DNA from: Deltaproteobacteria bacterium
GTDB taxonomy: Bacteria > Desulfobacterota > RBG-13-43-22
Length of the DNA: 40,321 bases
Reading direction: 5' to 3'
NCBI GenBank assembly: GCA_016219065.1
Contig: JACRCK010000137.1
Span: forward strand, 1 to 40,321
Shown here: positions 10,723 through 23,220 of the stretch, piece by piece
Layout: every line of letters begins with the position of its first letter
How positions within the stretch are numbered: position 1 is the first letter of the stretch
Program-made: the position numbers and the translations under genes
The notes under the pieces: generated by a model
Database searches by the model: none
What the model was told of the DNA's origin: nothing
Seen by the model: only the letters and a program-made list of their open reading frames with translations

Positions 10723-11808
10723 ATGGAGAGCGGGAATTCTTTAAAATCGCTGTTGATCGATCTTCTGGATGTCCCGGGGGTCTGCGGCCATGAGGAGCCG
10801 ATCCGCCTGAAAATCGAAGAATGGATCCGGCCTTGGGTCGATCGCCTGGAAACGGATGCCCTGGGGAACCTCATCGCCACCCAGGAGGGCCAAGGAGTGC
10901 GGCGGGTGGCCCTCTTTGCCCACATGGACGAGCTGGGGCTGGTGGTTGCCAATATTACGGCTGAGGGCTTTTTACGGTTCACGACCCTTGGCGGACTGGA
11001 CGACCGGGTTCTCCCGGCCACCCATTTGCGGGTATTGCCTCCGGGCTACCCGGAAGTTCCCGGCGTGGTGGCCTGGGTTCCACCACACCTGGCGGACCCG
11101 GCGGCCAAGGAAACCCCGAAGACCATTCCGGCTTCCGAGTTGGTCGTCGATGTAGGTGCAGCCCGGGCGGAGGAAGTGGCGGCGCTGGGGATTCAAGTGG
11201 GAACCCCGATGGTCTTTCGGAAACAGGTCTCGGCCCTGGCCAATGACAACCTGGCCTCCCGGGGTATGGACAACCGGGCCGGCTGTGCGGTCCAGATCAA
11301 GGTGCTGGAAGCCATGGCCGGGATCAGGGCAAGGCCGACCATCCATTATGTCTTTACCGTCCAGGAGGAATACGGTCTGCGCGGCGCCGTCACCACCGCA
11401 TACGGCCTGCAGCCCGACCTGGCGCTGGTGGTGGACACGGCCAGCGCCCCGGATTTTCCGGGGGTCCCGGCCGTGTACCAGGGGCAGTATCGACTGGGGC
11501 AGGGCCCGGTCCTGCGGCTGGTGGACAACCGGATGATTACCAGTCCAAAATTAAGCCAATGGGCCTGGGATCTGGCCCAAAATAAAAAGATCCCGCTCCA
11601 GAAAGGGGTGACGGGCGGATCGACCGATGCGGCGGCCGTCCAGTTGGCCCGCCGGGGACTGGCGGTGCTCCCGGTCTGCTTTCCCTGCCGCTACACCCAT
11701 TCCCTGGTGGAGACGGTATCGCTCCGGGACCTGGAGGCCGCGGTGGACTTGATTCGGGAAATGCTGGGTAATCTTCCTTTCCCCGCCGCCCGGGAGATGG
11801 GCGGATGA
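10723..11808 (+). CDS. M42 family metallopeptidase (FrvX-like glutamyl/general aminopeptidase)
   Basis: 361-residue dinuclear-metal aminopeptidase of the M42 family, a cytosolic TET-type peptidase in known members. Metal ligands and catalytic residues are visible: AHMDE (H67, D69), MDNRAG (D183), VQEEYG (E215/E216), VVDTA (D238) and YTHSLVE (H326). The start ATG 10723 has GGAGG 6 nt upstream. It overlaps the DUF488 gene by 4 nt. Its 5' flank is the MITE-like element, so the promoter may lie within or be supplied by that element. Substrate preference cannot be read from the sequence. Confidence 0.93.
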
Positions 11809-12161
11809 TAAAAGTCAAACGCGTCTACGAGGCCCCGGCACCGCAAGACGGGTTGCGGATTTTGGTCGACCGGCTCTGGCCCCGGGGGCTGTCCAAGGAA
11901 AGCGCCCGGATCGACCTGTGGCTCAAAGACATCGCGCCTTCCAACGAATTGCGAAAATGGTATGGCCATGATCCGGGAAAATGGACGGAATTCCGGAAAA
12001 GGTATTTCCAGGAACTGGGGACCGTTCCGGAGGCTGTGGAGACCATTCTGGAACTGGCCCAAAGGGGGCCGGTGACGTTGCTGTTCAGTTCAAAGGAACT
12101 TAAGATCAATAATGCCCAGGCCTTGAAGGAGTACGTGGCCTCCCGATTAGACGCCGAATAA
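11805..12161 (+). CDS. DUF488 family protein (YeaO-like)
   Basis: 118 residues with the family hallmarks: MIKVKRVYE at the start, then [37 protein letters not shown] and a YFQEL helix. No biochemical function is established for the family. The usual terminal D-x-x-H-N-x-A segment is replaced by [16 protein letters not shown], so the second conserved acidic/His site is altered. The start overlaps the M42 stop (ATGA), suggesting one transcription unit with the peptidase. Confidence 0.88.
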
Positions 12162-12179: not shown

Positions 12180-12545
12180 TTATCGGCTGTATTCGATACA
12201 AATTACTCCGAGAATGATCAGGGCAATTCCCAGCAGACGGGGGAGGGTGATGTGCTCTTGAAACAGGAAATACGATCCGGCCAGGACTACGATATACCCC
12301 AGGCTGGAGATCGGATAGGCATAGCTGACCTCTTCTTTAGCCAGGACCGCCAGCCACAGCAGGGCCCCGGATCCAAAAAACAGGAAACCCAGCAGCACGT
12401 AACCGTTGAACAACCCATAACCGATCAACTGCCAGAGGCCGGCCTGGGGTTGGATCCGATCGACGGTCGCCATGCCCTGCCTGAACATCAACTGGCCCAA
12501 GGCCGTCAACAGAACCGACACCAAAATTAAAAAGATATGGAGCAT
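12180..12545 (-). CDS. Small four-helix membrane transporter, SMR/EamA-like
   Basis: 121 residues from ATG 12545, with four hydrophobic segments. It opens with LHIFLILVSVLLTALGQLMFRQGM, the pattern of EmrE/ArnE-type proteins, including the GQxxFKxG-like turn, and ends with LPRLLGIALIILGVICIEYSR, typical of EamA/DMT half-transporters. Partners of this size in glycan clusters flip lipid-linked sugars (ArnE/F analogues) or pump cations. A TTG at 12551 overlapping the upstream stop is an alternative start. The 3'-adjacent gene on the other strand is separate. Role in lipid-linked sugar movement is inferred from context. Confidence 0.82.
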   Translation of the reverse strand: MLHIFLILVSVLLTALGQLMFRQGMATVDRIQPQAGLWQLIGYGLFNGYVLLGFLFFGSGALLWLAVLAKEEVSYAYPISSLGYIVVLAGSYFLFQEHITLPRLLGIALIILGVICIEYSR

Positions 12546-12547
12546 GG

Positions 12548-13291
12548 TCAACGTTTCCTGCCCAGGATCATCAGGGAAGAGCCGCAGGGAATATTCACCC
12601 GCTCGATCAGCCGGGCTTCCCAGGAAAGGACCCGGCGCACCAGGGCGTTAAGCCGGGGACCGGTTTCCTTGAGGTCCGAGCGGACCTCGAGGGGACCACG
12701 GCCCAAGCGGAGTTTATCCCATAACCGGGAAGCCGCCACCAGGGGAAAAGTCAGCCCGTAGAGATACGTTTTCTTCAGGATTTCGAAGCGGTGTTTTTCC
12801 ATTTTTCCGGCCAGTTCCCCGACCGTGTACCGATGGCGGGTCATAACGGCTAGATCATGACGGCTTTTCAAAAAATCCCAGGCCGAATCGGTGACCAGAA
12901 AATATCCCCCGTCGGCCAGTAATTCATGGACCTGACCAATGACCTGTTCATCGTCCAGGATTCCCTGGTGATAGAGCAGATCAAAGGCGCTTACCAGTTC
13001 AAAAGACCCGGGTTTAAAGGGCAGCCGGTTGGCATCCCCCCGAACGATCCGGGGGCCGGTTCTACGGCAGGAAAAACGGCAGGCCCGGTCATGGTAATCC
13101 ACCCCGAACACCCGACCATACGTTTTCAGCAACGCCAGCATCCGTCCGGTCCCGCAACCCAGATCCAGGATTCGGCCCTTATCCCGGCCGATATAGATAT
13201 CCAGGATCCTCCGGACATAGTTCCTTTTGGCTTGGAACCACCAGTGGTTGTCTTCCAAGCGGTACATGGTATCATATTCAGTTTCCTGCAT
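12548..13291 (-). CDS. Class I SAM methyltransferase with YDxMYxLEDxHWWF start
   Basis: 248 residues. The segment YDTMYRLEDNHWWFQAKR is the typical beginning of a methyltransferase family found in polysaccharide clusters, which is why I placed the start at ATG 13291 instead of 13411. Motif I ILDLGCGTGRML is near residues 41-52, an acidic SAM contact follows (FGVDYHD), and FELVSAFDLLYHQ is the post-motif region. It precedes the small transporter directly (stop at 12548, start at 12545), so they form one operon, and it faces the divergent sugar genes. Target molecule unknown; a sugar or lipid-linked sugar is likely. Confidence 0.82.
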   Translation of the reverse strand: MQETEYDTMYRLEDNHWWFQAKRNYVRRILDIYIGRDKGRILDLGCGTGRMLALLKTYGRVFGVDYHDRACRFSCRRTGPRIVRGDANRLPFKPGSFELVSAFDLLYHQGILDDEQVIGQVHELLADGGYFLVTDSAWDFLKSRHDLAVMTRHRYTVGELAGKMEKHRFEILKKTYLYGLTFPLVAASRLWDKLRLGRGPLEVRSDLKETGPRLNALVRRVLSWEARLIERVNIPCGSSLMILGRKR

Positions 13292-13475
13292 GGCTTTTAA
13301 AAATCGCTGTTCCTCGGTTCCGGTCGGCAGGCTATCACGACCCCCAAGGGTCTGTCCAGTTTTTGGGAAAGTATTATACTTTTTGGCCGGTTCAAAAGAA
13401 ATCGAAATCAACCAGGCCTTCGATTTAAAAGGAATTATTGAAATCCTCCCGGTCTGACAAAATCAAGATAAACGC

Positions 13476-13504
13476 TTTCAATTAAATCCCGAATAGGCTA
13501 TATA
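13476..13504 (+). promoter_or_regulatory. Weak candidate promoter for the glycan operon
   Basis: TTTCAA (13476-13481) and TATATA (13499-13504) at 17-nt spacing, in an AT-rich 298-nt divergent region between the methyltransferase (start 13291) and the glycosyltransferase (13590). The match is modest; no other better pair was seen. Confidence 0.3.
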
Positions 13505-13589
13505 GAAGGCTGGACGCTCTTTTTTTGTATTTAAACCGAAAGAGTCAAAAATTGACCCCGTCTCCAGATCTCGAGGTTTTTTTTTCCTG

Positions 13590-14294
13590 ATGTGCCGCGT
13601 CTCGGTTATCCTGCCAACCTACAATGAATCCGGAAATATTGGATCTCTGATCGAAGAAATCCTTTCCTATCTTCCCGAAGATAGTGAAATCATCGTGGTA
13701 GACGACGATTCCCCGGATCGAACCTGGGAGGTGGCCGCCGCCTGGGCTCAACAGGATCCCCGGGTCCTTTTAATCAGGAGAATAGGACGGAGGGGGCTGA
13801 CCACCGCCATCCAGGAAGGTTTTGAGCGTTCCCGGGGAGAGGTTATTTTTTGGATGGATTGTGATTTTTCCCACCCCCCCGACAAGATCCCGGAAATGAT
13901 CGAAAAGCTCAGCCGATATGATGTGGTCGTAGCCTCCCGCTATATTCCGGGGGGGGCAGAGCGGGGTCATTCCCGGTTGGGCTCCTTCTTGAGCCGCGTC
14001 ATCTGCGGCCTGTCCTCCCTGATCTTGAGCCCGGCGATCAAGGATTATACCAGCGGCTATGTGGGGCTCCGGAGGCCGGTATTGGAAGCGATCCCCTTGC
14101 GGGGAGATTACGGCGAGTATTGTATCGACCTGCTTTATCGGGCCCATACCCGGGGCTACCGCATCGTAGAAATACCCTATCGCTGCCTCCCGCGGCGGAG
14201 CGGGGAATCCAAAACGGCCACCCGCTTTTCAGGGTACCTCAAGCGGGGCTATAAGTATATTTTCACCCTGGTGCGATTGCGTTTTGGAGCATGA
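13590..14294 (+). CDS. Family 2 glycosyltransferase, polyprenol/dolichol-phosphate mannosyltransferase-like
   Basis: 234 residues, cytosolic face of the membrane. VSVILPTYNESGNI at the start, the nucleotide-binding VVDDDSPD (residues 37-43), the metal-binding DCDFSHPP (about 90-97), VASRYIPGG and the C-terminal basic RYRC-like segment match DPM1-type transferases that move mannose or another hexose from GDP/UDP to polyprenyl phosphate. It lacks the C-terminal membrane GtrA-like domain, as DPM1 from archaea and some bacteria does. The first gene of a five-gene plus-strand operon. The donor is not certain; with a GDP-perosamine-type aminotransferase nearby, a GDP-sugar is plausible (inference). 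Confidence 0.88.
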   Translation: MCRVSVILPTYNESGNIGSLIEEILSYLPEDSEIIVVDDDSPDRTWEVAAAWAQQDPRVLLIRRIGRRGLTTAIQEGFERSRGEVIFWMDCDFSHPPDKIPEMIEKLSRYDVVVASRYIPGGAERGHSRLGSFLSRVICGLSSLILSPAIKDYTSGYVGLRRPVLEAIPLRGDYGEYCIDLLYRAHTRGYRIVEIPYRCLPRRSGESKTATRFSGYLKRGYKYIFTLVRLRFGA

Positions 14295-14339
14295 TTCAGG
14301 GATAAAAATCCAGTAACCGGTGGAGGTGGGGGAACCGAT

Positions 14340-14750
14340 ATGAAATCCAGCGAATATGTCGAACGGGTGCACGCCGGGCAAAAGCTGATCGCCATCATCA
14401 TTCGAGGTGCCTTTGAGGACAGCGGCGTCAGCTTTTTCAGTCCCTTTGAATTTTCTCAGCAGGTGGGCATTTTGGTCCATCCTTCCGGATTTGAAGTGAA
14501 GCCTCATGTGCATAAGCTGATCAGCCGGGATGTCCGGGTGACCCAGGAAGTCCTCCACCTGATCCGGGGAAAAGTGGAAATCGTGCTGTATGACGAAAAC
14601 CACCAGCTCATCCAAACCTGCATCCTCCAGGGGGGTGATACCATTCTACTGGCTTCCGGGGGACATGGCCTGCGGGTCCTGGAACCGGCCAAGATCATCG
14701 AGATCAAGCAGGGTCCCTACGCCGGAATGGACGATAAGGAGTATTTTTAA
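14340..14750 (+). CDS. Cupin-like protein of glycan cluster
   Basis: 136 residues. Central PHVHKLISRDVRVTQEVLHLIRGKVEIVLYD has the His pair (H-x-H) and Gly that make a cupin metal site, and the end LLASGGHGLRVLEPAKIIEIKQGPY closes the second cupin motif. Such small cupins occur in O-antigen and exopolysaccharide loci; reaction unknown, possibly a sugar epimerase/isomerase or regulatory binding protein. GGAGGTGGGG precedes ATG 14340. It lies between the glycosyltransferase and aminotransferase with 2 nt to the latter, so it is translated with it. Confidence 0.75.
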   Translation: MKSSEYVERVHAGQKLIAIIIRGAFEDSGVSFFSPFEFSQQVGILVHPSGFEVKPHVHKLISRDVRVTQEVLHLIRGKVEIVLYDENHQLIQTCILQGGDTILLASGGHGLRVLEPAKIIEIKQGPYAGMDDKEYF

Positions 14751-14752
14751 GC

Positions 14753-15925
14753 ATGATCCCCGTCAACGAGCCCTCGATCGGTCGGGAAGAGCTGGCCCGG
14801 GTAACGGCCTGCGTAAAAAGCAACTGGATTTCCTCCCAGGGAAAGTTTTTGAAGGAACTGGAGGACGAGTTCGCCCGGTATTGCGGCGTCCGGTTCGGCA
14901 TCAGCACGACCAACGGCACGGCGGCTCTGCATCTGGCCCTGGCGGCCCTGTCCATCGGACCGGGGGATGAGGTCCTGGTCCCGACCTTCACCATGGCCGC
15001 CACCGCTTTTGCGGTCTGCTACTGCGGGGCCCGCCCCGTTTTCATCGATGCGGAACCCGAAACTTTCTCCCTGGACGTCAACCGGGTGGCGGACTACCTC
15101 CGGCGCCAGGAAAAAAAAGGGACCCTCCGGGTTAAAGCCGTCATCCCCGTGCACCTGTACGGCCATCCCATGGACCTGGACCCCCTCCTGGAGCTGGCCC
15201 GGCGCTATTCTCTGGCCGTCGTGGAAGATGCCGCCGAAGCCCACGGCGCCGAATACAAGGGGAAAAAATGCGGCGGGCTGGGCGATCTGGGGTGTTTCAG
15301 CTTCTATGCCAACAAGATCATCACCACAGGGGAAGGTGGCATGGTGGTTACCGACAATCCCCGGCTGGCCGACCGGGCCAGGAGTCTGAAAGACCTGGCC
15401 CATGATCCCGGGAAAAGATTCCGGCATATCGAACTGGGTTTTAATTATCGGATGACCAACCTGCAGGCGGCGGTAGGGATCGCCCAACTGAAAAAGATCG
15501 ACCGGCATATCCAACAGAAGCGTTGGATGGCCGGGGAGTACACCCGGCGGCTGGAAAGTCTCCCCGGACTTACCCTGCCTCAAGAAAAATCCTGGGCTAA
15601 AAATGTTTATTGGATGTATGGGCTGCTGGTGGAGCCGGAGTTCGGTCTAACCCGGGACCAACTCATGGCCTACCTGAAGGAAAAAGGGGTGGATACCCGG
15701 TCTTTTTTTATTCCCATGCACCTCCAGCCGGTGTTCACCCAGGGGCGGTATAAGGCCAAAAGGAACGGCCCTTTCCCCGTGGCCGAAGAAATTGCCCAAA
15801 AAGGGCTGTACCTGCCTTCGGGATTGACTTTGACCGAATCCCAAATTCAGTATGTCTGCCGGCAGATGAAGAAGGCTTCCCTGGCCGGGCGGGGGCAGAT
15901 CGAGGCGGAATTGTCCCGGCGATGA
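14753..15925 (+). CDS. DegT/DnrJ/EryC1/StrS aminotransferase (perosamine-synthase-like)
   Basis: 390-residue PLP enzyme that aminates a nucleotide 4-keto-6-deoxy sugar with glutamate as donor. STTNGTAALHLAL (51-63) binds phosphate, EDAAEAHG (158-165) holds the PLP Asp, and GCFSFYANKIITTGEGGM includes the Schiff-base lysine K188. The KIITTGEGG form is closest to GDP-perosamine synthase and related transaminases. The product would be a 4-amino-sugar nucleotide for surface glycan. ATG 14753 lies 2 nt after the cupin stop; the stop overlaps the next start (ATGA). No GDP-mannose dehydratase gene is in the window. Confidence 0.92.
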   Translation: MIPVNEPSIGREELARVTACVKSNWISSQGKFLKELEDEFARYCGVRFGISTTNGTAALHLALAALSIGPGDEVLVPTFTMAATAFAVCYCGARPVFIDAEPETFSLDVNRVADYLRRQEKKGTLRVKAVIPVHLYGHPMDLDPLLELARRYSLAVVEDAAEAHGAEYKGKKCGGLGDLGCFSFYANKIITTGEGGMVVTDNPRLADRARSLKDLAHDPGKRFRHIELGFNYRMTNLQAAVGIAQLKKIDRHIQQKRWMAGEYTRRLESLPGLTLPQEKSWAKNVYWMYGLLVEPEFGLTRDQLMAYLKEKGVDTRSFFIPMHLQPVFTQGRYKAKRNGPFPVAEEIAQKGLYLPSGLTLTESQIQYVCRQMKKASLAGRGQIEAELSRR

Positions 15926-18021
15926 GCACCCGCTGGTCCCGGCCGTGCCGGCATGCCGTCTGGATAGTCCTGCTGTTTCTGCTGGCCCCCATTCATTTCC
16001 TTCAACTGCTGCCCCATTTCTCCACCCACCTGGTCGGTGATGTGCTGGATACCGCCGAGTACCCCTGGAACGTCTGGTGGACGGCCCATGCCCTGCTGGA
16101 CCATCAAAGCAACCCTTTTCACAGTAACCACATGTTCTATCCCCTGGGGATGAATCTGGTCCAGCACACCTATACCTTTCTGGACGGGCTTTGGTATACC
16201 CTGGTCAGGCCGTGGGTGCCCCTGCTGGCTTTTCATAATCTCCTAACCTGGATGTCCATTTTTCTCAATTCCCTGGCGGCCTATGTCCTGGTTTTCCGGC
16301 TCACCGGGTTGAGCGGGATGGCCTTCATCGGCGCCCTGGCCTTCGGGCATTCTCCGATCCTGACCAGTTATCTGGGGACCCAAAGTCTGATCGAGCCTTA
16401 TCTGTTCGTTTTTTTTGTTTGGGCCTCTTACCATCTGTTTGAAGTCCGCCGCTACGGTTGGGGGGTCTTGGCCGGTATCCTCCTGGGGCTTGCGGTTTAC
16501 AACTATCCTTATTTTTTTGTTTTCGGTCTGGTCTGGCTCACGGTACTGGTTAGCTACCGGCTTTTTCCCTGGTCCGTGAAGCCGAGCGGGGTCTCCGGGG
16601 AACCCGGAAGGGCCCGGATCGGAACCGTGCTGCCCTGGTTGATTTTCGGTCTGCTCTTTGCCCTGACCTTGCTTTCCAGGGAAGCCTGGGAGATGTTGAA
16701 AATCAGCGCCTTTTTCAACACCCTCAACGGTCTGGGATTCCTGACGGGAATTTATTTCCTGCTAAAAGCAGAGGATATTTTTACGGCGAAGAGAAAAGCG
16801 GGACGGGAGGCCGATCCTGCTCCTTCGGGTTGGGTAAAACGGCTGGGGCCCCGGTCGCTGGAATGGCGGCCCCCGGGGGGGAAAGAAACGGTCCGGATCT
16901 TGACCCTGTCCGCGTTGGTCCTGGCAGCGGCCCTCCTGACGACCTTTCCTTATACGCAATCCTACCTGACCGACCCGGGAACCCGGTCGGCCGTAAAAAG
17001 CCTGCCGATCGACTTTGAAACCTTCAGCGTGGATCTGGCCAGTTTCTTTGCCCCCATGCATCCTTGGCTGTCAGGCTTATCCCAAAAAATCGCCGCGGAC
17101 TGGAAGCTGGGACGACCCCTGCTGGGGACCCACGGGTTCTTCGGATATTTGTGGATGATTCTCCTGGTCGCAGGGATCAGCTTTTTTTTTAAAAGGCCGG
17201 CGTTACGGGTGTGGATCATGGCCTGGCTGGTTTTTTTCTTTTTTTGTCTAGGACCTTATTTAAAGTTTCACGGCATTACCTATACCGGTCTCGTCCTCCC
17301 GGGAACCTTACTCCCGAAGCTGCCCTTATTGGGCAGCACCCGGACCCTTTCCCGGTTTGTGGTCCCTTTGACCCTCTGCACGGTGGTGATCGGCTGCCTG
17401 ATCCTGAAAGATTTTTTTCAAAAATGTTCGCCCGGCTCCAGGGTTTTCGGTTATGCGGGACTGGGGCTGGTCACCGCCTTCGAAACGGCCTTGTTCCCCT
17501 ACCCGCTCCAACTCCCCATAACCGATTATCGGGTTCCCGCCGTTTATCAGTCCCTGGCCGCAAGGGCTCAGGCACGGGAAGGGGTCTTGCTGGACCTGCC
17601 GCTGCAAACCAAGAGCGGGGAGCATTGGAAAGGGAAGCGGGAAACCCGGACCTTTTTTTATCAAACGGTTCACGGGCAGTACAACGTAGGGGGGGTCTCC
17701 TCGAAACTGGATGACAGCGTTTTCGCTTTTTTTCAAAAGCTCCCCGGGGTGGTGGCCTTTTGGGAGCAACGACCGATCACCCGGGAAGAGTTGGCGGCCT
17801 TCCTGTCGGTCCTGCGGGTGGACTGGATCGTTTTGGAGAAATCCAGGTATGATCCGAAAACCCTGGAGACCTACCTGACGGCCTTGGCCCAAACCCCGGG
17901 CCTGAAGAAATTCTTTGAAGATGCGGATTTTGTGGGCTTTCAGGTACTCCAGAAGCCCGTACCGACTTCCACTACCGGCGCGGCCCTGCCCATCCGCCAC
18001 GGCCCGGCTTGGATAGGCTGA
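15922..18021 (+). CDS. Multi-pass membrane glycosyltransferase-like protein (GT-C fold candidate)
   Basis: 699 residues, about ten transmembrane helices predicted from hydrophobic stretches between residues 10 and 510, followed by a soluble C-terminal domain. The first periplasmic loop contains GDVLDTAEYPWNVWW, with acidic residues where GT-C enzymes keep their catalytic Asp/Glu, and YPLGMNLVQHTY, as seen in bacterial polyprenyl-phosphate-sugar transferases (YfhO/DUF6541-like). It would use the polyprenyl-linked sugar from the upstream DPM1-like enzyme on the periplasmic side (inference). The start overlaps the aminotransferase stop by 4 nt. Family assignment by topology and context. Confidence 0.72.
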   Translation: MSTRWSRPCRHAVWIVLLFLLAPIHFLQLLPHFSTHLVGDVLDTAEYPWNVWWTAHALLDHQSNPFHSNHMFYPLGMNLVQHTYTFLDGLWYTLVRPWVPLLAFHNLLTWMSIFLNSLAAYVLVFRLTGLSGMAFIGALAFGHSPILTSYLGTQSLIEPYLFVFFVWASYHLFEVRRYGWGVLAGILLGLAVYNYPYFFVFGLVWLTVLVSYRLFPWSVKPSGVSGEPGRARIGTVLPWLIFGLLFALTLLSREAWEMLKISAFFNTLNGLGFLTGIYFLLKAEDIFTAKRKAGREADPAPSGWVKRLGPRSLEWRPPGGKETVRILTLSALVLAAALLTTFPYTQSYLTDPGTRSAVKSLPIDFETFSVDLASFFAPMHPWLSGLSQKIAADWKLGRPLLGTHGFFGYLWMILLVAGISFFFKRPALRVWIMAWLVFFFFCLGPYLKFHGITYTGLVLPGTLLPKLPLLGSTRTLSRFVVPLTLCTVVIGCLILKDFFQKCSPGSRVFGYAGLGLVTAFETALFPYPLQLPITDYRVPAVYQSLAARAQAREGVLLDLPLQTKSGEHWKGKRETRTFFYQTVHGQYNVGGVSSKLDDSVFAFFQKLPGVVAFWEQRPITREELAAFLSVLRVDWIVLEKSRYDPKTLETYLTALAQTPGLKKFFEDADFVGFQVLQKPVPTSTTGAALPIRHGPAWIG

Positions 18022-18022
18022 A

Positions 18023-19519
18023 ATGAACCCGCCAGCTAGACCAGCCGTAGCGGGCCGCCGCCATTGGGCCTGGACCGCCGCCGGTATCGCCGTCGCCGTC
18101 GTCCTGCTGGGATCGGCTTATTACCTTAAAAAACGGCCTAGCGGCACCCCGCCGGCCAAGCTTCCCGTCATCCAGTCCGATCGTTACCTGGTGGGCGCCC
18201 ATTATTACCACTGGTATCCGAGGAATTTCCGGCACGGCTATTTGCGCGAACACCTCCGGCCCCGGCAGACCTTTCCCGGTGGCGAGTACCAGTCAACCGA
18301 CATCGAGGTGATCGCCCGCCACATCGCCTGGTGCTCCGAATACGGGATCGATTTCCTGTCCATCGGCTGGTGGTCGCACGAGCCGGAACGGACCGAGTCG
18401 TTTTTAGACCACCTGTACCGGACACCGAATATCGCCGACATCAAGTTCTGTGTCTTCTACGAAACCCAGTCGCTAGGTTTCGACCCCAAGCTCGGAACAA
18501 CCAGCTTCGACGAGGCCAAAACGGCCCGGATGATCGCCGACTTTGAAAAGATCGCGGCGCGCTGTTTCAGCCATCCGTCCTATCTGCGCCTCCGCGGGCG
18601 GCCGGTCGTCTTTCTCTACCTGTCCAGAACCTTCAGCGGCGCCTTTGCTCCGGCCGTTGCTCGCCTGCGCTCGGCCATGCGAACGCGGGGGTACGACCTG
18701 TTCCTGATCGGGGACGAGATATTCTGGAGGGTGTCCCCCGTGGTCCCGTCCGGCCGGATTCCCTTCCCGTTGGTCAAGACCCCACAGCCGGCCCGGTTCT
18801 GCCTGTTCGATGCCATCACCTCATACAACATGTACGAAAGCGGCGCCGCCTCCCAGAAGGGCTATGCCGCCCAAAGCACCTACGTCTCCGATGTGGCCGC
18901 CAAATACGCCGAGTACATCTCGGCCGCAGCCGGCAGGGTCTACTTCGTCCCGCAGATCATTCCGGGTTACAACGACCGCGGGGTCCGGAGAAGGGAGAAT
19001 CATTACGCGATCCCGCGGGAATGGAGCGAGGGCTCAGGTGAAGCCAGCCTGTTTGCCAGTCTGTTTGATCGCACGGCCTTGCGATTCCTGGATCCCCGGC
19101 TGAACATGATCCTGATCACCAGTTTTAACGAATGGAACGAGGATACGGCTATCGAACCGCTAGAGCCTTCCGGTCCGACCCGGACCGATGACAGCGCCTC
19201 GGGGAACGAGTACACCCAGGGCTACTCCTACAGCGGGCACGGGCTGCGCTACCTGGAGACGCTACGGAACAAGGTCCTGGCCCTCTGCGGGACGGTGCGT
19301 CGGGGGTCGGGTGCCGTGCCGGGCGCGGTCGTCCGGGCTTACAAAGGCCAGCAGCTCATGGCCGAGACCCGCACCGACTCTGCCGGACGGTTCCGCTTTT
19401 CCAGGCTGGCATTGCCGGCGGATCAATACACCATCCGCGCTGCGGACCAGCCGGACTCCGCCTACCCGGTTACGGTCCGCCCCGGAACCTGCAGCACCGG
19501 CATCCACCTCAAACGCTAA
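18023..19519 (+). CDS. Membrane-anchored GH99-like protein with carboxypeptidase-regulatory-like tail
   Basis: 498 residues. An N-terminal helix (WTAAGIAVAVVLLGSAYYL) anchors it, with the body outside. VGAHYYHWYP, YGIDFLSIGWW and TSFNEWNEDTAIEP match the GH99 / GH99-like (endo-mannosidase) pattern. In GH99 the two catalytic glutamates lie in an E-W-H-E motif; here E370 and E373 in NEWNED keep both. The C-terminal domain (about 425-498), LCGTVRRGSGAVPGAVV to QYTIRAADQ, is a beta-sandwich CarboxypepD_reg-like domain. It starts 1 nt after the GT-C-like gene, so it belongs to the same operon: the hydrolase or transferase could trim or transfer the glycan built upstream. Some GH99-like proteins in glycan loci are not hydrolases. 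Confidence 0.82.
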   Translation: MNPPARPAVAGRRHWAWTAAGIAVAVVLLGSAYYLKKRPSGTPPAKLPVIQSDRYLVGAHYYHWYPRNFRHGYLREHLRPRQTFPGGEYQSTDIEVIARHIAWCSEYGIDFLSIGWWSHEPERTESFLDHLYRTPNIADIKFCVFYETQSLGFDPKLGTTSFDEAKTARMIADFEKIAARCFSHPSYLRLRGRPVVFLYLSRTFSGAFAPAVARLRSAMRTRGYDLFLIGDEIFWRVSPVVPSGRIPFPLVKTPQPARFCLFDAITSYNMYESGAASQKGYAAQSTYVSDVAAKYAEYISAAAGRVYFVPQIIPGYNDRGVRRRENHYAIPREWSEGSGEASLFASLFDRTALRFLDPRLNMILITSFNEWNEDTAIEPLEPSGPTRTDDSASGNEYTQGYSYSGHGLRYLETLRNKVLALCGTVRRGSGAVPGAVVRAYKGQQLMAETRTDSAGRFRFSRLALPADQYTIRAADQPDSAYPVTVRPGTCSTGIHLKR

Positions 19520-19524
19520 CGGAA

Positions 19525-20154
19525 CTATTTGGCTGCGGCCGGGGCCGGCAGGGCCTGGATGGCCTGGACGATCTCCCGGCCCAGGCGCTCCACCGCCCGG
19601 CTTTGGGCGGCCACCAGGGATTGGTAGTCGGATCCGGGGGCCGGCTCGGTGATCCGGGACTTGCGAACGACCCCGTCCTTTTTATCCGGACCTTCAAGGA
19701 TGGCCCACGTGGCTTCCAGAAGGGCTTGATCCCCGGGAGTCCCCTCGAAACGGTTCAAATTCATGCCAATTCTGAAATCAATGGGAATGGCCCCGATATA
19801 CGGATAAAGAACGATTTTGTCGGTTTCCAGCAAAATGGAGATATTTTCCGCCAAGACCCGGAGAAAGTCATCCTTGAGGGAACCGGCCCAGAGGTCGAAC
19901 TCGGCAATCTCGATGGTATTCCCGCTGCGGCGGGTCACGATCCCGGGACGATCGAGGTAATCCGGGAAACGGATGGGCCCCAGCCCGATGGTCAGACCCT
20001 TACCCAGCGGTTGCCCGGTCTGGTCCTTAAGGGGGGCGGACAAAGAACTGAGGGTATAAAACCGGGCCTGCGGGCTGGAGGCGCAGCCCCAGCAAAAAAG
20101 CAGGCCCAGGCTGAAACAGATCAGGATGGAACGGAAAAATACGCTCTGGCTCAT
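19525..20154 (-). CDS. ABC-type transport auxiliary lipoprotein, PqiC-like
   Basis: 209-residue lipoprotein; lipobox FCWGCASSP gives the lipidated Cys near residue 24. RFYTLSSL, then GLTIGLGPIRFPDYLDRPGIVTR and EFDLWAGSLKDDFLRVLAENIS are the standard pattern of PqiC/DUF330 (ABC-type transport auxiliary component). It caps or anchors an MCE-protein bridge at the outer membrane. ATG 20154 follows GGAGGG by 7 nt, which decides the start over an ATG at 20169. It is the last gene of the minus-strand operon, 1 nt after the MlaD stop. It is convergent with the GH99 gene, 5 nt apart; no terminator is visible. Confidence 0.92.
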   Translation of the reverse strand: MSQSVFFRSILICFSLGLLFCWGCASSPQARFYTLSSLSAPLKDQTGQPLGKGLTIGLGPIRFPDYLDRPGIVTRRSGNTIEIAEFDLWAGSLKDDFLRVLAENISILLETDKIVLYPYIGAIPIDFRIGMNLNRFEGTPGDQALLEATWAILEGPDKKDGVVRKSRITEPAPGSDYQSLVAAQSRAVERLGREIVQAIQALPAPAAAK

Positions 20155-20155
20155 G

Positions 20156-21154
20156 TTAATGCCCTCCATCGGGACTCTTCCCCCGCAGCAGGGACTCGGG
20201 GTGGCGTTTTAAAAAGTCCGCGAGCAATTGGATCGAACGCATGGTCTTACTGATTTCCTCCATGGTGCCGATGAACTCCGCGGAAAGAACGGATTCGTCG
20301 GAAAGAATATCGGAGGCCTTCTTCAGGGCCTGACGGGTCTCCACCAAAACCCCTTCGGTTTGATCCAGTGTCTTTTTCAAGCCGGCCGCCAGAGGAATTA
20401 TTTCTTTGTCCGCGTTCTTCAGCAGGTTGCGGGCCTCCCCCAGGGCGCCTTTGGTTTCGGCGGCCAGGGGATTGATCTGGGCGTCCAGATTCCGGGCCAG
20501 GGAGCGGATATCGCCGGACACTTGCCGCAGCTCCTTCAGGGTGGCGTTCAGATTCTTGGCCAGTTCACCGGTCTCCGGGGAATTGATCACCCTTTCGATC
20601 CCTTCCAAAGCCAGCGTGGCCTTCTGAGCGATTTCATGGACCGGGATTTGTGCTAAGGCTTTTATAATCTGCTCGGTCCCCGAGGGAATGGTGGGTATTT
20701 CCGGGTAGCGGGTCTCGGCCTTCACCAGGCGCAGGGGTTTGCCGGGAAAATAATCGACATAGATCATCAATTGCCCGGTGAGCAGGCTCTGCATTTTGAT
20801 CTGGGCCCGCAGGCCCTTTTCAATCTGGGTTTTGAAGGTGAAATCCGGCTGGCCGTGATCGCCCTGCTCCTTGAACCGTTTCGGATCGATTTCGACATAG
20901 ACCGGTATGAGGACCTTGTTTTCCTGGGGATAGTTCCAGAGTTCCACCGCCACCACCGAGCCGATGGTAACCCCGCGAAAAACCACCGGGGCGCCCAGGT
21001 TCAGCCCGCTGATCGACTCTTCGAAGAAGAGGACCAGTTTGACCTTCTTGGAGAAAAATTCTCCCGAGCCGAAGATCAAAACGGCCACGAGCAGCAGGGC
21101 CACGGCCCCGACTACGAACCCCCCGATCAATGTCTTGCTGGCGCCTTTGCTCAT
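20156..21154 (-). CDS. MCE-domain lipid transport protein, MlaD/PqiB-type
   Basis: 332 residues: one N-terminal transmembrane helix (LIGGFVVGAVALLLVAVLIFG) and a single MCE domain with LGAPVVFRGVTIGSVVAVEL at about 53-72, then long helices rich in heptads (ELAKNLNATLKELRQVSGDIRSLARNLD). This is longer than E. coli MlaD (about 180) and resembles the MCE proteins whose helical tails form a tunnel across the periplasm. It would pass phospholipids between MlaEF in the inner membrane and the outer membrane. GAGGTG lies 8 nt upstream of ATG 21154. Confidence 0.93.
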   Translation of the reverse strand: MSKGASKTLIGGFVVGAVALLLVAVLIFGSGEFFSKKVKLVLFFEESISGLNLGAPVVFRGVTIGSVVAVELWNYPQENKVLIPVYVEIDPKRFKEQGDHGQPDFTFKTQIEKGLRAQIKMQSLLTGQLMIYVDYFPGKPLRLVKAETRYPEIPTIPSGTEQIIKALAQIPVHEIAQKATLALEGIERVINSPETGELAKNLNATLKELRQVSGDIRSLARNLDAQINPLAAETKGALGEARNLLKNADKEIIPLAAGLKKTLDQTEGVLVETRQALKKASDILSDESVLSAEFIGTMEEISKTMRSIQLLADFLKRHPESLLRGKSPDGGH

Positions 21155-21213
21155 TGGTTCAACACCTCAATGCGAAATTTGGCATTCCCTGCCCTTTCAT
21201 TAATAATTAACCA

Positions 21214-21978
21214 TCAGTTTTTCTCCCCCCGCGTCAGAAACTTCACCACTTTCGGATCTTCCGCCGCTACCAGCAGTCTTTTGGGGTCTCCCTGGGAGGT
21301 CATGGTCCGCGTCTCCACATCCAGGTAAATGGAATTGGTGCCTATGGAGAAAATGCTGGCCAGTTCATGAGTGACCACGATAAAAGTGGTGCCCAGGCTT
21401 TCCCGAAGTTCCAGGATCAGATCGTCCAGCAGGCGGGAACTCACCGGATCCAGCCCGGCCGAAGGCTCGTCCAGGAAGAGGAATTCCGGGTCCAGGGCCA
21501 TGGCCCGGGCCAGTCCGGCCCGTTTGCGCATGCCGCCGCTGATCTCCGCGGGGTAATAGTCCTCGAAGCCGGCCAGCCCGACCAGGGCCAGCTTCAGGGA
21601 GGCGAGTTCCCGGATCTGTTTCGCCGTAAGGCTGGTGTATTCCCCCAGGGGCAGGGCCACGTTTTCCGCCAGGGTCATGGAGCTCCACAGGGCGCCCTGC
21701 TGGTAAAGGATGCCGACCCGGCGCATCAATTGGTCCCGGACCCCGGGAGCGGCCTCCCAGAAGTCGGCCCCTTTATAAAGGATCTTTCCGTGGCTCGGCT
21801 CCTTGAGCCCGATCATGGTCCGCAGGAGCGTGCTCTTGCCGCAGCCGCTGCCGCCCATGATAATGAAGACGTCTCCCCGATTGACCGTAAAGTTGATGTC
21901 GTGCATCAGGACGAAACTGCCGAAGGCAATGGCGAGGTCCTGCACCACGATGGGGTTGTCGTTGGGTCGATCTTCCAC
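21214..21978 (-). CDS. ABC transporter ATPase, MlaF-type
   Basis: 254 residues from GTG 21978. Walker A GGSGCGKST, signature ISGGMRKRAGLARA, Walker B FLFLDEPSAGLDP and the switch His in VTHE are all present. The signature SGGM(R/K)KRA is the form seen in MlaF. It powers lipid transport with the adjacent MlaE permease. The frame is open to 22047, but those codons lie inside a palindromic repeat (21994-22073); GTG 21978 is the first plausible start after it, with only a weak ribosome site, so the exact start is uncertain. The 59-nt gap to MlaD is without features. Confidence 0.92.
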   Translation of the reverse strand: MEDRPNDNPIVVQDLAIAFGSFVLMHDINFTVNRGDVFIIMGGSGCGKSTLLRTMIGLKEPSHGKILYKGADFWEAAPGVRDQLMRRVGILYQQGALWSSMTLAENVALPLGEYTSLTAKQIRELASLKLALVGLAGFEDYYPAEISGGMRKRAGLARAMALDPEFLFLDEPSAGLDPVSSRLLDDLILELRESLGTTFIVVTHELASIFSIGTNSIYLDVETRTMTSQGDPKRLLVAAEDPKVVKFLTRGEKN

Positions 21979-21993
21979 TAAACTTTCATTCCC

Positions 21994-22073
21994 GGAGTAA
22001 TGGAGTATTGGAGTAATGGAGTGATGGTCATTAAAGCAATACTCCAATACTCCACCACTCCATTACTCCAATC
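21994..22073. repeat. Palindromic micro-repeat between mlaE and mlaF
   Basis: Units of GGAGTAAT/GGAGTATT at 8-9 bp spacing on one arm (21994-22028) and their complements (ACTCCAATACTCCA-type) on the other (22038-22073), with a 9-nt loop. This is an imperfect long hairpin filling almost the whole gap between two co-transcribed genes. Such ATTACTCC repeats are common dispersed elements in environmental genomes (recollection). It could alter translation of mlaF or stabilise the mRNA. It is not a CRISPR: units are too short and there are no spacers. Confidence 0.6.
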
Positions 22074-22074
22074 T

Positions 22075-23220
22075 CTATATTCCAATGAAATTGCAGACCA
22101 CCGTTATAATCGCCGTGGCTACGATGATGCTGATAATCCCGCTGACCACCGCTTCCGTGGTCACCTGGCCGACGGCCATGGCGCTGCGGCCGCATTGGAT
22201 CCCTTTCAGACATCCGGTCAAGCCGACTAGGATCCCGAAGACCGCGCTGTGAACCAGACCGATCCAGAAATAGGTCAGGGTCACCGAATAAACGGTCTGG
22301 TTATAATACTGCATGAAACTGATGTCCAGCATGAAGACGCCTACGATCAGTCCGCCGAGCATGCCCATAAAATCGGAGTAGATGCCCAGCAGGGGCATCA
22401 TCAGGGTCAGGCCCAGGATCCGGGGCAGGACCAGGAATTCGATCGGGGAGATCCCCAGCGTCTGCAGGGCGTCGATCTCCTCGTTGACCTGCATGGTCCC
22501 CAGTTCGGCCGCAAAGGCCGCACCGGTCCGTCCGGCCATGATGATGCCGGTCATGATGGCCCCCATGACCCGCAGCATGGCTATGGCCACCAGGCTGGCC
22601 ACGTAGATCTGGGCTCCGAAGAGGGTGAGCTGGACGGCCCCGACAAAGGCCAGGATCAGACCCACCAGGACGCTGATCAGGGAGACGATGGGCAGGGCAT
22701 CCGCCCCGGTGCGCTGAATAATCTGCAGCAGATCCGATCGGCGGAACTGGGCCCGGCCCCGCAGCAGCCTTAGAAAGGCCAGGAAAATTTCCCCCACAAA
22801 ACCCAGCATAACCCGGACGAAGCCCATGCCGTCCAGGAAGCGGGAACCGATCCGCCCCAAAAAAGAATCCCGGTCTGTATCCCGCCGGGCGCCGGTTCTT
22901 TCGGGAACGGCGGCAGCCAGGGCCAGGAGACGGCGCACCCCGGGGGGCAACCCGTCATCTTCAACCGCGATTTTATGCTGTTCACAATAGGCTTTGATTC
23001 GGCTCAGAAAAGTCAGGAGGACGCTGTCCCAGTTTTTGAGCCGGGACGTATCCAGGACCAGGATTTTTATCCGGGTATCGGACGTCAGGTGCTGTTGCCA
23101 TTCCTCCGGATCGGGAACCGGCTGCCCCATGGTCCAATTCCCGCTCATACCAAGAACCAGATACCCGGTCCCCTCTGCGGTTACGGCCAGTTGGGGCGGT
23201 TCGGATTGGACTTTTCCCAT
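22075..23220 (-). CDS. MlaE-type lipid ABC permease with fused N-terminal STAS-like domain
   Basis: 381 residues. Residues 1-95 (PQLAVTAEGTGYLVLGMSGNW, then RIKILVLDTSRLKNWDSVLLTFL) match a STAS/MlaB-type domain with the DTS and D-S-x-L pattern. Residues 130-381 are the permease: EIDALQTLGISPIEFLVLPRI is the MlaE hallmark near 250, with about five hydrophobic helices. In E. coli MlaB is a separate STAS protein, so this is a fusion. It is the second gene of the operon, 23 nt after the lipoprotein; the ribosome site is weak (AGGAG too far away). A 5' extension is not supported. Confidence 0.93.
   Translation of the reverse strand: MGKVQSEPPQLAVTAEGTGYLVLGMSGNWTMGQPVPDPEEWQQHLTSDTRIKILVLDTSRLKNWDSVLLTFLSRIKAYCEQHKIAVEDDGLPPGVRRLLALAAAVPERTGARRDTDRDSFLGRIGSRFLDGMGFVRVMLGFVGEIFLAFLRLLRGRAQFRRSDLLQIIQRTGADALPIVSLISVLVGLILAFVGAVQLTLFGAQIYVASLVAIAMLRVMGAIMTGIIMAGRTGAAFAAELGTMQVNEEIDALQTLGISPIEFLVLPRILGLTLMMPLLGIYSDFMGMLGGLIVGVFMLDISFMQYYNQTVYSVTLTYFWIGLVHSAVFGILVGLTGCLKGIQCGRSAMAVGQVTTEAVVSGIISIIVATAIITVVCNFIGI

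Follow-up and report, generated by a model that had tools for sequence, protein, structure and literature searches.

We propose, with a probability of about 0.6, that the seven genes at positions 12180 to 19519 of the window (the whole 40,321-nucleotide stretch of DNA analysed here) form a three-component periplasmic glycosylation locus, which would resemble the Arn pathway in its working while relying on different enzymes, and in which a GH99-family enzyme would act on the same acceptor. The proposed order of events is the following: (i) the DegT aminotransferase and its cupin partner would make a nucleotide-linked 4-amino-6-deoxy sugar, most likely of the GDP-perosamine type and derived from GDP-4-keto-6-deoxymannose, which the methyltransferase may modify; (ii) the DPM1-type GT2 would load this sugar onto polyprenyl phosphate; (iii) the SMR protein would flip the lipid-linked sugar to the periplasmic side; (iv) the GT-C protein would move the single sugar onto an envelope acceptor; and (v) the membrane-anchored GH99 enzyme would cut or transfer a manno-configured glycan on that acceptor. 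We infer here the identity of the substrate and donor, the direction of each step, the flipping, the acceptor and the GH99 reaction. The short decoration envisaged as the product in the initial annotation fits such a three-component system. If the model holds, three-component envelope glycosylation would also cover an amino sugar, probably of the manno type, in poorly studied bacteria from two phyla.

Gene layout and flanks

The model starts from what the analysis shows: the folds and families of the proteins, the order of their genes and the partial conservation of the set. The seven open reading frames of the locus were confirmed at the positions below, given with the divergent intergenic region and both flanks.

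11805-12161: DUF488 gene; flank, looks unrelated to the locus
12180..12551, minus strand: SMR/DMT-type small membrane protein, 123 aa, ArnE/ArnF-like (NCBIfam ArnF/ArnE, PF00892)
12548..13291 (ORF to 13411), minus strand: SAM-dependent methyltransferase (PF08241)
13292..13589: divergent intergenic region between methyltransferase and GT2 genes, 298 nt (set by the gene starts)
13590..14294, plus strand: predicted GT2, DPM1-type polyprenyl-phosphate sugar synthase (PDB 5mlz match, PF00535)
14340..14750, plus strand: WbuC-like cupin (TIGR04366)
14753..15925, plus strand: DegT-family sugar aminotransferase, perosamine-synthetase-like (PF01041, PDB 3bn1)
15922..18021, plus strand: predicted GT-C membrane glycosyltransferase, 699 aa (AlphaFold model and fold search)
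18023..19519, plus strand: GH99-family enzyme with N-terminal membrane anchor (PF16317, PF13620, fold search)
19525 onward, minus strand: lipid-transport operon; other flank, looks unrelated

The GT2, cupin, DegT, GT-C and GH99 genes follow one another on the plus strand with gaps of 45, 2, -4 and 1 nt, as expected from the five co-directional, tightly spaced genes first reported after inspection of the sequence. The close packing starts only after the cupin, GT2 standing 45 nt upstream of it, and the DegT and GT-C genes share a 4-nt ATGA overlap. The methyltransferase and the flippase-like protein, of SMR type, had been described as diverging from this run, and both indeed lie on the minus strand, methyltransferase then SMR, with a 4-nt overlap. 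Alignment with two relatives indicates that the methyltransferase likely starts at ATG 13291 (247 aa) rather than at TTG 13411, and this start leaves the 298-nt divergent region before GT2. In that region (13292..13589) promoter matches did not rise above chance; promoter and terminator scans returned matches at chance level only, and an Rfam scan gave no match.

No Wzx/Wzy-like polytopic protein was found among the window ORFs, and the surroundings of the locus showed neither a polymerase or Wzx-type flippase nor an exporter or ligase, so the earlier statement that Wzx/Wzy, an ABC exporter and a ligase are missing stands. The sole ABC parts nearby (19525-23220) read as a Mla-type lipid transporter, a reading for which the profile scan covered the auxiliary lipoprotein only (PF03886); a search of four genomes of the same family with the MlaD-like protein (window 20156-21154) gave nothing at E<=0.001.

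Proposed lipid-linked sugar synthesis, flipping and transfer

The 699-aa protein gave no credible sequence match in Pfam, NCBIfam or the PDB. Its AlphaFold model, built on a 20-sequence alignment, reached a pLDDT of 79.5 and a pTM of 0.82, and all 22 PDB fold matches at E<=0.001 were GT-C enzymes (AglB, STT3, PglB, DPY19 and AftD), the best being AglB at 1e-8; with TM-scores of about 0.45, these matches speak for membership in the GT-C fold and not for function. By this model, the protein has the GT-C fold that the initial annotation had anticipated, and a membrane-protein family without a profile model thereby gains a fold and a likely role. All 20 sequences of the alignment share Asp43, which lies in the first external loop; the catalytic Asp of GT-C enzymes stands after the first helix (PMC11127046), and D43 is a candidate for this residue. 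A single-sequence query found no match in the genome contigs, an alignment query being required. The protein was matched in 14 of the 395 genomes of the phylum sample, with close matches (45-48% identity) in only 3 of these 14, all from the window's own family and including the window itself. In a different genome of the phylum (L029), a distant homologue is grouped with a GT2 gene and two SMR genes.

Two relatives are worth recording in their own right. The window's own genome has a GT-C paralogue (L139:7706-9447) that is broken across two reading frames, through mutation or assembly error, and another GT-C relative (L050:203-3208) carries a C-terminal ILEI/FAM3-like domain (PF15711, 48.9 bits), a domain better known in animal secreted proteins.

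The GT2 protein matched PF00535, carries the motifs DCD at 90 and GESK at 205, and found its best PDB match in the dolichol-phosphate-mannose synthase 5mlz (122.6 bits, with ArnC at 56 bits). By homology, it is predicted to be a DPM1-type polyprenyl-phosphate sugar synthase, with orthologues 65-69% identical in three same-family genomes. The DegT aminotransferase (PF01041, 396 bits) had as its best PDB match the GDP-perosamine synthetase 3bn1 (RfbE/Per; 329 bits, 46% identity over 355 aligned residues, almost the whole chain) and keeps the PLP lysine, K188. Its score against the NCBIfam LegC model (361 bits, below the cut-off of 420) means that the substrate is not fixed and that a UDP-sugar is possible. 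Unlike GDP-perosamine synthetase, DegT is coupled in this lineage to a WbuC-like cupin: the two genes are beside or close to each other in 19 of 21 strong-match loci (L102-L121 and window 14340-15925), the exceptions being L114 and L118. The cupin itself barely clears the WbuC model TIGR04366 (42.1 bits, cut-off 42), a PDB sequence search with its profile returned nothing, and its 3-His/1-Glu metal motif (H56, H58, E70 and H109) is invariant in the alignment. By their genomic association, cupin and DegT appear to form a tight pair.

The context of this pair in related genomes bears on the donor sugar. In three genomes of the same family (G009, G083 and G047), an orthologous GT2-cupin-DegT block (65-72% identity) is preceded by DegT2, GT2b and a GMD-like dehydratase (about 397 bits versus a cut-off of 415) and followed by an LPG_synthase_TM protein. 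At the equivalent site of the window's genome (L140), DegT2, GT2b and the LPG_TM protein are present and the block is absent, suggesting that the block was probably relocated to its place beside the GT-C gene; elsewhere, the same genome has a true gmd (573 bits). A GDP-manno sugar is the guess that best agrees with the GMD-like gene or gmd, the perosamine-synthetase-like DegT and the DPM1-type GT2 taken together. The donor would thus probably be a manno-type 4-amino-6-deoxy sugar; GT2 and GT-C could instead use a plain mannose donor.

The methyltransferase matched Methyltransf_11 (PF08241, 55.9 bits) and is 43-46% identical to methyltransferase genes within Nitrospirota loci. The SMR protein scored 49 bits against NCBIfam ArnF and 40 bits against ArnE, each under the equivalog cut-off, and 29.4 bits against EamA (PF00892), above the cut-off. 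No acidic residue occurs in its first membrane helix, a feature of lipid-type SMRs (PMC9574504), and the protein's sequence points to a probable lipid-sugar flippase. The gene is the single copy found in the window's genome, where no partner, which a lone SMR may require, was found. Altogether, the searches support each of the DPM1-like, perosamine-type, flippase-like and GH99-like labels given at the outset.

The GH99 subfamily and its GT-C or GT-C-like neighbours

The last protein of the run scored 47.5 bits against PF16317 (cut-off 33) and bears a C-terminal CarboxypepD_reg-like domain (PF13620, above cut-off). The confidence of its model is modest (pLDDT 67.6), and a fold search with this model returned GH99 proteins as all of its top matches, the best at 2.4e-11. 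The presence of both catalytic glutamates was verified, E370 and E373 in FNEWNE (residues 368-373). In fold, PF16317 match and these two glutamates, the protein is like the GH99 endo-alpha-1,2-mannosidases/mannanases. It differs from them by its extra C-terminal beta domain and by its motif: all four aligned subfamily members reaching the motif have EWNE, with N as the third residue, whereas that of described GH99 proteins is EW[H/G]E (PMC11025385). The claim that the enzyme is exported agrees with its one N-terminal membrane anchor, though the lipobox-like cysteine carried by the four aligned relatives is missing in the window copy.

Six members of this subfamily were found (window, G047, G009, G171, G015 and G745), and in all six a GT-C or GT-C-like gene directly adjoins GH99, an association that is new here. 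In the window, the 699-aa GT-C gene lies 1 nt upstream of GH99; in G047 and G009, a GT-C-like gene of 381-388 aa is upstream, and in G171 a 31% homologue of this protein is encoded 23 nt upstream. The order in G015 is GT-C-like (592 aa), DPM1-like GT2 and GH99, with 4-nt overlaps, and in G745 GH99 is followed by a 45% homologue of the 592-aa protein. The 381-400-aa and 592-aa proteins are named GT-C-like by topology and sequence character, and G047 and G009 belong to one lineage, so that the six cases represent about four independent contexts.

This recurrent neighbourhood suggests that GH99 is likely a partner of lipid-sugar-dependent GT-C enzymes. In the literature searched, no precedent was found for GH99 in glycan biosynthesis clusters or for a GH99-GT-C pairing; described GH99 proteins differ from this subfamily, which has a membrane anchor or lipoprotein-like signal and adjoins GT-C genes, not degradation loci. 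We tentatively suggest, at somewhat less than even odds, that the anchored or lipoprotein subfamily, with its EWNE motif and C-terminal beta domain, could be a dedicated bacterial partner of polyprenyl-phosphate-sugar-dependent GT-C enzymes, editing or transglycosylating their glycan. If true, it would be tied to glycan building, not glycan eating, and would be the equivalent, in the periplasm, of the eukaryotic Golgi endomannosidase, which trims protein-bound glycan.

As a separate observation, the GH99 protein at L152:8022-9707 has an N-terminus similar to a segment of the GT-C-like protein family encoded next to it (38% over 71 aa).

Known systems, alternative readings and conservation

In the three-component systems compared (GtrA/GtrB/Gtr*, the pentofuranose system with GT136, and the Gram-positive GtcA systems), a polyprenyl-phosphate monosaccharide synthase, a small flippase and a GT-C enzyme add side chains outside the cytoplasm (PMC11127046). 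Likewise, the window has a predicted GT2-type polyprenyl-phosphate sugar synthase and a GT-C-fold enzyme, and its divergent SMR gene, of a kind also grouped with GT2 and GT-C in L029, may supply the small flippase. Unlike these systems, the locus encodes its own aminotransferase, cupin and methyltransferase, its SMR is of the ArnE/F and not the GtrA type, its GT-C has no family model, and a GH99 is added. With the Arn pathway (ArnB, ArnC, ArnT and ArnE/F) it would share a DegT-made 4-amino sugar, a GT2, a GT-C and an SMR flippase, whereas ArnA and ArnD were not found among the locus ORFs and the sequence of the GT-C does not identify it as ArnT. Strict membership in Arn was rejected, scores against cut-offs being 231/631 bits for ArnB, 64.6/529 for ArnC, 49/99 for ArnF and 40/92 for ArnE.

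The locus might instead feed a long polymer of the cell surface, an exopolysaccharide or O antigen, with polymerase and exporter encoded elsewhere in the genome, GH99 acting as a chain-length or clearing hydrolase. Such a product would agree with contig C318 of the same genome, where gmd lies beside an apparent capsule-type kinase fragment and glycosyltransferase genes, and with other cupin-DegT pairs of the phylum, which sit in longer gene runs resembling glycan clusters. We consider it unlikely, given that the polymerase, Wzx-type flippase, exporter and ligase of such clusters were not found near the locus or, for the first three, among the window ORFs, and that the product of a DPM1-type GT2 is a monosaccharide-phosphate lipid, the donor for GT-C side-chain enzymes and not for repeat-unit assembly (PMC11127046). 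Glycosylation of periplasmic proteins by the GT-C, in the manner of PMT, DPY19 and oligosaccharyltransferases, with GH99 trimming the protein-bound glycan, appears more doubtful still: the nearest folds are indeed AglB/STT3/PglB and DPY19, and eukaryotic GH99 trims N-glycans (PMC11025385), but a likeness limited to the fold (TM about 0.45) is uninformative on the acceptor, and no acceptor protein or sequon supports this reading.

The least probable alternative is that two modules with no relation to each other happen to be neighbours, a relocated GT2-cupin-DegT amino-sugar block and a GT-C/GH99 pair using another donor. The separate site of the block in same-family genomes and its absence from L140 agree with such a split, as does G047, which has a GT-C gene with GH99 nearby and without DegT or cupin. 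Against it stand the 4-nt DegT/GT-C overlap in the window and a Nitrospirota contig (L052) that unites GT2, cupin, DegT, methyltransferase and a GT-C of the window's family, in the order radical-SAM, GT2, GT87, cupin, DegT, methyltransferase and GT-C, the last running off the contig end. A second Nitrospirota locus (L053) holds GT87, cupin, DegT, methyltransferase and a GT-C remnant. With all five genes in L052 and part of them in L053, both from groundwater genomes, a GT2-cupin-DegT-methyltransferase-GT-C core is common to two phyla, which favours the single three-component locus that we propose. The expectation that the whole set would be conserved together was borne out for this core and for GT2-cupin-DegT in same-family genomes, and not for GH99 and SMR, which fall outside those loci, GH99 adjoining GT-C genes of several kinds. 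The SMR gene is absent from L052/L053 and from the same-family GT2-cupin-DegT loci, a search of three Nitrospirota genomes, made on incomplete assemblies and without a positive control, returned no GH99, and no single relative has all seven genes together.

One further detail concerns L053: its GT-C remnant (L053:4852-5274) is 140 aa long, while the neighbouring cupin, DegT and methyltransferase genes are intact.
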